NCBI GenBank assembly: GCA_016795155.1
Contig: JAEUIE010000022.1
Span: forward strand, 62,001 to 126,000
DNA length: 64,000 bases
Source: Planctomycetia bacterium
Lineage (GTDB): Bacteria; Planctomycetota; Planctomycetia; Gemmatales; HRBIN36
Reading direction: 5' to 3'
Shown: positions 38,351 through 41,910 of the stretch, one piece after another
Layout of the letters: each line of letters opens with the position of its first letter
How positions within the stretch are numbered: the first letter of the stretch is position 1
Program-made: the position numbers and the translations under genes
Notes under the pieces: model-generated
Seen by the model: the letters and a program-made list of their open reading frames with translations, nothing else
Database searches by the model: none
What the model was told of the DNA's origin: nothing

Positions 38351-39532
38351 GTGCCTGATTCGATTTCATCACAAGTCAGCAAGTACATTGATCAACTTCA
38401 ATTACTCGGTTCAGCCATTGCACTCATTACGGCAATGTGCGGCATCGTCCTGTTTGTGATGTGGTACAAGACCGGCATTCCCAAGGTGCTAGTAGGCAAA
38501 CAACGTGCAGTCAGAGTCCCCTGGGATTGGCTCGAAGTCTTTCTGGCAGCACTGCTTCTCCTTTTTATCATGGATGCACTGATCATTACTTTACCGTGGG
38601 GAAAACACAAACTTCAGACGGAAGATTATGCAGGGTATCAAATCAGTGTCGCTGCATCCGCGATGCAGGTTGCTGCTGACCAGGGATTAAGCGGTGGCTT
38701 ACTCACTCTTCCTGGCGCTCTCGTCAGCTACAAGCCGGAATTAACACGACAGCTCGAAGATGCTCGTTCACGCATCATCAACACGGTGCTGTTCTTCCCG
38801 CTGCTCCTGGTTGTATTTTTCAATGTGATGAAGAGGCTCTGCGGGGCCAGGCTCTATCAGATGGGATTGCACCTGAATCGCTGGAAAGAGAACTTTACAC
38901 TCGGCACGTTAGTCTGGCTGGTCATCACTCCCATCTGCAATGTCCTGTTATTGATTCTCCTGCTTCACTTCTGGGAAACCCTGTGGGGCAGAAATACGGA
39001 ACATCCCATGGGTATGCTGCTCATGCAGGATTCACGGTACAGCACCTGGATTCTCGTTGGCATACTGACGTGTGTGATTGCTCCCCTGAAAGAGGAACTG
39101 CTGCTGCGTGGCGTGGTGCAGCCGTATCTGGTACGGAATCCCGTGGCATCGGATGTTCTTGTCATACTTTCCATCATCTGGGCGTTTTCCAACTTGATGA
39201 CGCCGGGTACAGGGCCAGATCGAGGCATGGGCCTGGGGCCGCTGCTCTTTGTGTTCTTTGCAGCACCGGGATATTACCTGTTTGAAATCTGGGTGAAGCC
39301 TTGGATCAGTGAACCTGGTGCTGCACGGGGCATCTTCGCTACATCACTGTTTTTTGCAGCATTGCACGCTGGTGCCTGGCCACAACCTGTTCCACTCTTC
39401 CTCTTCAGCCTGGCTGTTGGCATTTTAGCCTATCGGACCCGTTCCCTGATTGGTCCCATAACTGTGCATATTCTCTTTAACCTTACAACAATGATATCGA
39501 TGCTGTTGCATGAATATCCGAATTGGAAATAA
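38351..39532 (+). CDS. CPBP-family intramembrane protease
   Basis: A 393-residue membrane protein from GTG 38351 with about eight hydrophobic helices. The CPBP/Abi (Rce1-like) catalytic motifs are in the C-terminal part: EELLLRGVVQPYL (EExxxR), FFAALH (FxxxH) and HILFN (HxxxN). The N-terminal 230 residues hold extra helices and a soluble loop (about 85-130). The family processes prenylated or bacteriocin-like peptides in some organisms; the substrate here is unknown. It stands alone. Confidence 0.88.
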   Translation: MPDSISSQVSKYIDQLQLLGSAIALITAMCGIVLFVMWYKTGIPKVLVGKQRAVRVPWDWLEVFLAALLLLFIMDALIITLPWGKHKLQTEDYAGYQISVAASAMQVAADQGLSGGLLTLPGALVSYKPELTRQLEDARSRIINTVLFFPLLLVVFFNVMKRLCGARLYQMGLHLNRWKENFTLGTLVWLVITPICNVLLLILLLHFWETLWGRNTEHPMGMLLMQDSRYSTWILVGILTCVIAPLKEELLLRGVVQPYLVRNPVASDVLVILSIIWAFSNLMTPGTGPDRGMGLGPLLFVFFAAPGYYLFEIWVKPWISEPGAARGIFATSLFFAALHAGAWPQPVPLFLFSLAVGILAYRTRSLIGPITVHILFNLTTMISMLLHEYPNWK

Positions 39533-39929: not shown

Positions 39930-41081
39930 ATGCGTACCATCCTGGCCGGGGTGCTCGCCCTGTGCTGGTGCGGACTTATTTCTGCACAGACTGGTCAATC
40001 TAACAATGCGAAAGCGCGAGCCGATCGGTTGGCGGCCATCAAGGCGGAAGTTGCCCGGGTTTCTGCCGAAGGCCGCAAGAAGATCGAACAGATTCAGGAT
40101 GCCAGCGAGAAGCGGGCGGCTGAGCAAAAGCTGTCTCGGATGATTGTTAGTGAACTGCAACCCAGGCTGGCTGGGCTGGCGCTGGCACTGGCCAGGGAAA
40201 ATCCCAAGGATGATGTCGGGCTGGAAGCGTTGGTCTATGCTGTCTCGAAGAATGGCGGGAATAAAGCTGTTCAAGACGAAGCACGCCGGTTGATTATCCA
40301 GTTACATCTGAAAAATCCCAAGATCGAGGAAGCGCTGCCCAATGTAGCACGCCGTGATCGTGATTATGATGAAGCCCTTCTGAAGAGTGTGCTGGCCCAG
40401 AACCCTTCCAGGAGCGTGAAAGGAACAGTTTCGTTCCTTCTGGCCAAAAGCCTCAAGGCCCAATCCGAAAGCGTCAAGATAAGAGATGCCGACATCGAGA
40501 CGAAGATGAAGCAGGCGATTGCAGCGTTTGAGAAGGTGGCTGCGGAATATAGCGAAGTGACACTCAAAGGGATGGGAATGAGTGGGAACGCGGCTGTGCT
40601 GGCGAACCGGGAAATCGATTTGATTAAGAATTCGGCCATCGGCAAGGTGGTACAGGAAATAAGCGGGGAAGACCTGGATGGTGTGCCATTCAAAATCAGT
40701 GATTACCGGGGCAAGGTGATCCTGCTTGATTTCTGGGGGCATTGGTGAGGGCCTTGCCGGGCCATGTTCCCTCACGAGCGGTCGCTTGTGAAACGCCTGA
40801 GAAACTACCCTTTCGCCCTGATTGGCGTTAACAGTGATAGGGATCGAGAAGAGATCAAGATCAAGAACTTACAGGAACAAATCACCTGGCGCTCGTTTTG
40901 GAATGGAGCGCAAGGAACTCGTGGCCCCATTTCTACATCGTGGGAGGTGCGTGCATGGCCCACATTGTATTTGATCGATCACAAAGGCGTGCTTCGCCGG
41001 AAGTTTGAGGGCAATCCCGGGGATGCTGAACTGGATCGATTGATTGATGAACTGGTGGTGAAAGCGATGAGGAACCGGTAA
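39930..41081 (+). CDS. Predicted selenoprotein: secreted TlpA/thioredoxin-like protein with UGA (Sec) in the redox motif
   Basis: A 383-residue protein if TGA at 40746-40748 (codon 273) is read through. Residues 1-20 are a signal peptide (MRTILAGVLALCWCGLISAQ), 25-235 a helical region of unknown function, and 238-383 a TlpA/redoxin-type thioredoxin domain: GVPFKISDYRGKVILLDFWG, then HW-[TGA]-GPCRAMFPHERSLVKRL, FALIGVNSDRDR, RAWPTLYLIDHKGVLRRKFEG. The TGA replaces exactly the first Cys of WCxPC, giving UxxC. The downstream 110 codons remain fully protein-like, and a SECIS-like hairpin follows. The alternative, a C-to-A nonsense mutation or read error, would give a truncated 272-residue protein lacking the redox site. 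Selenocysteine genes were not seen in the window. Confidence 0.8.
40772..40791 (+). promoter_or_regulatory. Putative bacterial SECIS hairpin
   Basis: An 8-bp stem pairs 40772-40779 with 40784-40791 (one G-U pair) around the loop GGUC at 40780-40783. Thirty-one nucleotides lie between the TGA and the loop. Bacterial SECIS elements have a small apical loop with G in its first two positions about 16-37 nt after the UGA, and the E. coli fdhF element also presents GGUC in its loop. The hairpin lies inside the coding sequence as expected for bacteria. SelB binding is inferred. Confidence 0.7.
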
Positions 41082-41144
41082 ACGAATCGATCCTCCCCGT
41101 TGCACCGAATCTGGTTGATGAATTTGATAGCCATCCGTGGAGTG

Positions 41145-41178
41145 CCAGGGTGCCATGCCCACCCCAAGGTGGGCATGG
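41145..41178. repeat. Left REP-like palindrome of the RAYT unit
   Basis: Reads CCAGGGTGCCATGCCCACC followed by CCAAGGTGGGCATGG, a hairpin of CCATGCCCACC against GGTGGGCATGG. An inverted copy lies at 41855-41889 on the other side of the transposase gene, the arrangement expected for a RAYT gene and its cognate REP sequences. Confidence 0.8.
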
Positions 41179-41241: not shown

Positions 41242-41820
41242 ATGGACATGTCACACCGCAAACGCTGTAAGCGATACAACGAACCGGGGCATGCTCATGC
41301 CTTGACTTTTTCATGATTTCAGCGAAGACCCTTCTTGAGCAAGGATCGTTCTTGTCAATGGATGCTCGATGCTCTGAATCGAGCCCGACAACTGCACGCG
41401 TATCACCTGTGGGCTTACGTCATCATGCCTGAACATGCCCATGTTCTCGTTTGCCCAACATTGGCAACCTACAACGTCAGCGAATTCCTGAACTCGGTGA
41501 AACAGTCTGTTTCCAAAAAGGCATTACTCTGGGTGCGTGAATATGCGTCAGCATTCCTGAAACAGATGGCTGACCGGCAGCCGAATGGAGATATCCACTT
41601 TCGATTCTGGCAACGGGGCGGAGGATATGATCGCAACCTGTACGAACCAGCTGTCATCCATCAACAGATCGATTACTTTCACGGCAATCCGGTGAAACGA
41701 GGGCTGTGTCAGAAGCCGGAAGATTGGCTTTGGTCGAGTGCTCGAGAACATGCCAACCGAGGCAGTGGCCCACTTTCCCTCGATTTGGAATCGCTGCCAC
41801 GATTATTGGTGACGGTTTAG
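41242..41820 (+). CDS. REP-associated tyrosine transposase (RAYT) with an in-frame TGA
   Basis: From ATG 41242 the frame reads MDMSHRKRCKRYNEPGHAH, ALTFS, then TGA at 41314-41316 (codon 25), then FQRRPFLSKDRSCQWMLDAL and onward to TAG at 41820, 192 codons in all. WAYVIMPEHAHVLV is the HUH metal-binding motif of Y1/IS200-like transposases and the catalytic Tyr lies in the region QQIDYFHGNPVKRGL. Relatives usually have Cys in the T-F-S-C-[FY] position occupied by the TGA. Either the gene is inactivated by one substitution, initiates downstream of the TGA, or is a second selenoprotein. A weak hairpin CAAG/CTTG with a G-first loop lies 27 nt after the TGA. It is flanked by inverted REP-like palindromes. 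Confidence 0.75.
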
Positions 41821-41854: not shown

Positions 41855-41889
41855 CCATGCCCACCTTGGGGGTGGGCATGGCACCCTGG
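41855..41889. repeat. Right REP-like palindrome of the RAYT unit
   Basis: CCATGCCCACC, loop, GGTGGGCATGGCACCCTGG: inverted copy of 41145-41178. It begins 34 bases after the transposase stop and ends 22 bases before the convergent ygfZ stop. Confidence 0.8.
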
Positions 41890-41910
41890 CACTCTGGCGC
41901 TCGACCCATC

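Follow-up and report, generated by a model that had tools for sequence, protein, structure and literature searches.

In bacteria in general, SelB carrying selenocysteyl-tRNA binds the loop of a selenocysteine insertion sequence (SECIS) element and recodes UGA as selenocysteine (Sec), according to the available parts of PMC9312934 and PMC13188914. The bacterial SECIS (bSECIS) model in the available part of PMC13188914 specifies a loop of 3-9 nt, an upper stem of 4-16 bp, G within the first two bases of the loop (mostly GG or GU), a gap of 16-37 nt between UGA and loop, and a minimum free energy (MFE) at or below -7.5 kcal/mol. Here we compare with these described systems a hairpin that follows an in-frame UGA in a TlpA-like gene of a Planctomycetia bacterium, within a stretch of 64,000 nt of contig JAEUIE010000022.1 (the window). 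Among described selenoproteins, the predicted 'Prx-like thiol:disulfide oxidoreductase' family (PMC9312934, PMC13188914, in their available parts) shares with this gene the PF00578 domain, a Sec that opens the motif and UxxU variants, a likeness taken by description from tables rather than from an alignment with the reference member WP_010940744.1; the word stem 'Planctomycet' is absent from the available texts of both papers describing that family. Trx-like 1 (COG0526), defined on marine metagenome reads in the available part of PMC2398784 and compared by description only, is likewise a UxxC thioredoxin-like selenoprotein with many Cys homologues. For the phylum itself, the available part of PMC4807772 describes selenoproteins of planctomycetes P1 and P2 together with a full Sec machinery in the phylum, that of Gemmata obscuriglobus and Isosphaera pallida included; its main text names FdhA and FmdB, and thioredoxin-like selenoproteins are absent from its section 17. 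Both the kind of signal and the protein family are already known; the near-invariant sequence of the element across related species is unusual. A search of the literature on planctomycete thioredoxin-like selenoproteins, which left most subscription papers outside, turned up no SECIS described as frozen in sequence.

We are highly confident that this gene encodes a selenoprotein and that the hairpin is its bacterial SECIS element (features in Table 1). Its sequence is TCACGAGC-GGTC-GCTTGTGA, and RNAfold recovers it from the 60 nt that follow the UGA. A sequence-only reading of the window had proposed eight base pairs closing a GGUC loop inside a coding region, at a distance from the UGA and with a loop that suit a bacterial SECIS. 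The eight pairs are confirmed, one of them being a G-U pair (40776 with 40787), and all four published constraints agree: the loop of 4 nt and stem of 8 bp lie within the size limits, the loop starts with GG, the spacing of 31 nt falls within the allowed range, and the 24-mer of the window has an MFE of -11.3 kcal/mol. Like the elements of the bSECIS model (PMC13188914, available part), it is located within the coding region; it differs from them in being nearly sequence-invariant across the sampled Planctomycetota. By itself, the hairpin is only moderately improbable: when its eight codons were recoded synonymously at random 20,000 times, 506 of the recoded versions retained a 7-bp stem and 299 were equally stable. 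A loop of the same sequence, GGUC, is found in the E. coli fdhF element.

What places the signal above chance is the comparison of Sec with Cys relatives. A profile search of loci L017-L221 gave 210 domain matches, 189 of them distinct once identical stretches were removed: 105 UxxC, 16 UxxU, 65 CxxC (distant paralogues included, none dropped), 2 SxxS and 1 SxxC. The UGA takes the place of the motif's first Cys, and Cys homologues exist, as in the Prx-like selenoproteins. When the hairpin is called as a GGTC loop with at least five of six inner pairs, it is present in 121/121 Sec, 0/65 CxxC and 1/3 Ser forms (Fisher p 5e-51, a value that ignores kinship). Among the 120 Sec domains that remain after leaving out one with short flanks, all six inner pairs are found in 119, against none of the 65 Cys domains; the loop begins with GG in all 120, and the MFE threshold is passed by 120/120 Sec against 6/65 Cys domains. 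Relative to synonymous recodings, the folding energy of the hairpin stretch is -7.4 kcal/mol in UxxC (104 domains), -6.2 in UxxU (16) and -0.7 in CxxC (65), and the stretches before and after the hairpin have no excess of stability. Neither outcome that the sequence-only reading had named as fatal to its proposal was encountered: no Sec ortholog among the 121 distinct domains lacks the hairpin, and Cys orthologs do not keep it equally well, 67 of the 68 non-Sec domains being without it.

The same reading had pointed to a second pairing, GTGAGGG with CCCTCAC, that would include the UGA, and had found a switch from one fold to the other conceivable; such a two-state switch would control read-through. 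That pairing does exist in the window and is mutually exclusive with the SECIS hairpin. However, its seven pairs are possible in only 1/120 Sec domains, and RNAfold on a stretch including the UGA favours the SECIS hairpin. We therefore judge the competing pairing incidental and reject the switch, which we consider very unlikely.

It could also be argued that the hairpin is a by-product of coding a conserved peptide, HERSLV. H-E-R-x-L is indeed also common among Cys relatives, and a 7-bp stem survives part of the synonymous recodings described above. However, synonymous codons are frozen in the Sec forms only: Arg52 is CGG in 121/121 Sec domains against 15 of the 42 Cys domains having Arg, Leu54 is encoded by CTC or CTT in 120/121 against 10/45, and Glu51 is GAG in 119/119 against 33/41. 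Ser53, present in 121/121 Sec domains and always as TCG, is nearly absent from Cys forms (1/65, there TCC), and the sole Cys form with HERSL (L220) spells it CAC GAG CGT TCC CTG and has no hairpin. Elsewhere in the Sec domains, equally conserved residues use mixed codons, such as Arg89 (CGC 50, CGT 37, CGG 19). Moreover, in L188 Glu has become Gln, yet the pair was kept by an exchange of G-C to C-G. Such an origin of the hairpin is strongly disfavoured by these data and appears extremely unlikely.

A further alternative is that the UGA is a true stop, created by a nonsense mutation, gene decay or a sequencing error, so that the product would end before the motif. Standard annotation would end the gene there, and a transposase copy downstream also has a TGA and looks decayed. 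Nevertheless, the same TGA is found in four genes of the source genome and in 121/189 distinct domains, the frame beyond it is open and conserved, and the Sec machinery is complete, which makes a true stop exceedingly improbable. The genome (5.28 Mb, 97% complete) encodes a tRNA-Sec of 70.7 bits, above the cut-off and identified by ARAGORN as tRNA-SeC with anticodon tca, together with SelB (401.9 bits), an adjoining SelA (564.3 bits) and SelD (365.5 bits; G000:C12:77743-78672, L223), so that SelA, SelB, SelD and tRNA-Sec are all available, as a bacterial SECIS element requires of its host. With the hairpin found in the Sec forms and this machinery in the genome, the interpretation as a bacterial SECIS first offered from the sequence alone is supported. 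That the UGA is read by other means, through a general UGA-sense code or an ordinary suppressor, is next to negligible, as nothing beyond the open frame speaks for it and TGA terminates other genes (for example paralog L024), UGA positions in the family coincide with the active-site Cys, and a tRNA-Sec with anticodon tca is present. Separately, a tRNA-Sec gene is located about 1 kb before one Sec gene of the source genome (G000:C5:90415-92456; L001, L024), and in genome G078 (C1:779190-782940) the Sec form L188 is about 1.4 kb from selB.

With the hairpin read as a SECIS, a gene that standard annotation would truncate at the UGA becomes a selenoprotein gene. Residues 237-357 of its product match the PF00578 AhpC-TSA domain (51.8 bits, exceeding the curated cut-off of 26; E 1e-13), with the motif in the context DFWGHW-U-GPC. 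The solved structures closest to it in sequence belong to ResA/TlpA-type thiol-disulfide oxidoreductases, with 30 distinct sequences reaching E 1e-10 or better, and the protein itself is taken to be a TlpA/ResA-like enzyme with a putative redox role. The N-terminal stretch resembles a signal peptide and is followed by a helical-looking region, both judged by eye, and the protein is probably exported. On the SECIS reading, when a ribosome reaches the UGA, SelB with selenocysteyl-tRNA-Sec would grip the GGUC loop downstream and selenocysteine would be delivered in place of a release-factor stop, yielding an oxidoreductase, probably exported, in which Sec may serve as the attacking residue of U-G-P-C. 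As the hairpin overlaps the HERSL codons, in Sec members it would be the RNA, rather than the protein, that fixes these codons and the Ser.

The element recurs well beyond the window. A read-through search of seven genomes of the family found a TGA at the same place, followed by the hairpin, in three more genes of the source genome and in one gene of another genus. The 14-mer of the hairpin, GAGCGGTCGCTYGT, has four exact copies in the source genome, one in each of these four TlpA-like genes, and a fifth site is off by one base. An alignment of the five proteins was scanned over 84,980 named species and gave 425 relatives, and each of the 80 that were retained has the hairpin in a Sec-encoding domain (80/80). 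This set is biased to the Sec query and, being the best 80 of 425 for such a query, was not used as a frequency. These 80 comprise 74 from Planctomycetota, 1 from Kiritimatiellota (a metagenome bin) and 5 with no named phylum. Within the order, matches with an E-value of 1e-25 or lower occur in 91 of 102 genomes. Sixty regions were fetched by choice among the order matches listed, favouring those with in-frame stops; because the regions read are a selection, proportions of Sec to Cys in them have no meaning. SelB is above the cut-off in 80 of the 102 genomes and, by hand count, all 20 genomes in which a Sec form was read are among these 80; the other sixty SelB genomes had no Sec form among the selected regions read.

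The least circular test is a census of the phylum, because its search requires no protein. In 392 genomes, drawn evenly from a larger group and with totals counted by hand, CACGAGCGGTCGCTYGT has 106 copies in 66 genomes, and the reversed pattern, as a control for chance, has 6 copies in all. In 104 of the 106 copies (65 genomes) a TGA lies exactly 24 nt upstream; these 104 are counted as pattern matches of the 17-mer and the TGA spacing, irrespective of reading frame. Since the element is one word at a fixed spacing, a 44-base pattern recovers the family from raw genomes.

Several observations weigh against the SECIS reading or narrow its support. In the census, one of the 106 17-mers has no TGA (G236) and another lies at a contig edge, at base 22, where the TGA would fall outside (G399). 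A non-Sec gene with a Ser/Ser motif (L196, G082:C269) retains the complete hairpin codons; it adjoins its Sec relative L185 on the same contig and may be a relic of a recent Sec loss that left the SECIS behind. Rfam at gathering scores finds no RNA family in the window. The covariation term from RNAalifold is 0.07, near nil because the element hardly varies; the support consists of synonymous invariance and hardly of covariation. The compensating stem changes that the first reading of the sequence had suggested looking for are nearly absent, except that the exchange in L188 is a genuine double one and the only one seen; the other stem changes are G-C to G-U (the window included) and A-U to G-U in L190. 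Finally, the domains are kin, so the counts are not independent, and in a gene tree built from few columns by a quick search, four independent Sec/non-Sec pairs on strongly supported branches gave 3 in agreement, 0 in disagreement and 1 without difference (p 0.25).

The sequence of the element may be more constant than its presumed function would demand. The selD gene of the source genome has one in-frame TGA of its own (context CASCAG-U-AGK), and the hairpin that RNAfold predicts after it, GCTCC-CGG-GGAGC, differs from that of the TlpA-like genes. Together with the complete machinery, this suggests that SelB also serves one or more hairpins of another sequence. Because SelD has this different hairpin, the freezing in the TlpA-like genes may exceed what loop recognition by SelB needs, which would point to a further constraint acting on the sequence of the stem. 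The broader proposal that a single frozen SECIS word, CACGAGCGGTCGCTYGT, serves one expanding TlpA-like selenoprotein family of Planctomycetota and dictates HERSL, with its copy in the UxxU branch decoding two UGAs, seems to us evenly poised between right and wrong.

The UxxU branch comprises 16 distinct domains from eight genomes (L162-L177), which form one well supported group in the quick tree (99); 3 of the 104 census copies are UxxU as well. In these genes two UGAs nine bases apart precede the SECIS hairpin, the loop of which is 31 nt from the first and 22 nt from the second, so that one hairpin may serve both. As two reviews list UxxU for the PF00578 Prx-like family (PMC9312934, PMC13188914, available parts), the motif as such is not new; the branch offers a way to test if a single SECIS can act on two UGAs. 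The family provides natural controls, since relatives with Sec, with two Sec, with Cys and with Ser often share one genome. In the 16 UxxU domains, a predicted 5-bp hairpin, GGGCC/GGCCC, lies after the second UGA and ahead of the SECIS. In UxxC domains RNAalifold (99 sequences) finds no further conserved hairpin in the interval from UGA to SECIS, and this interval averages 2.8 kcal/mol more stable than synonymous recodings. Codon 45, just past the motif (40758-40760 in the window), is the Arg codon CGG in 95/120 Sec domains, against a pooled CGG use for Arg of 0.27; this bias lies outside the SECIS stem, and no common fold accounts for it in UxxC domains.

Table 1. Positions, within the 64,000-nt window, of the predicted selenoprotein gene and of its RNA features
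Feature	Position	Strand	Remarks
TlpA/AhpC-TSA-like gene, predicted selenoprotein	39930..41081	+	Read-through translation gives 383 residues (U at the UGA) up to a stop codon
In-frame UGA, predicted Sec (residue 273)	40746..40748	+	Position 1 of the CxxC-type motif (U-G-P-C); homologues have an aligned Cys
TGC, second (resolving) Cys of the motif	40755..40757	+	From sequence and read-through translation
SECIS hairpin (GGUC loop; stem of 8 bp, of which one is G-U)	40772..40791	+	From sequence, RNAfold and comparison of domains
Near-invariant 17-nt stretch CACGAGCGGTCGCTYGT	40773..40789	+	Y = T in the window; codes H-E-R-S-L plus two bases of V
Apical loop GGTC	40780..40783	+	31 nt after UGA; in 120/120 Sec domains with full flanks
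Competing pairing GTGAGGG/CCCTCAC, judged incidental	40745..40775 (40745-40751 with 40769-40775)	+	Not conserved

Two neighbours of the gene complete the description of the locus. Downstream, a frame resembling an IS200/REP-type (repetitive extragenic palindromic) transposase (41242-41820; Y1_Tnp, 17.4 bits, below the cut-off) has an in-frame TGA at 41314-41316. Sec was considered for this TGA and rejected: the paralog L229 has Asn, and the sequence after the TGA lacks a SECIS-like hairpin with a GG loop, which indicates a nonsense change in a copy that is probably decayed. The frame lies between inverted repeats at 41140-41178 and 41855-41894 (arms of 26 and 17 nt, 100% identical), like a REP-associated unit. 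The upstream neighbour, at 38351-39532, encodes a membrane protein that is Rce1-like (CAAX protease-like) and scores 53.9 bits for PF02517.
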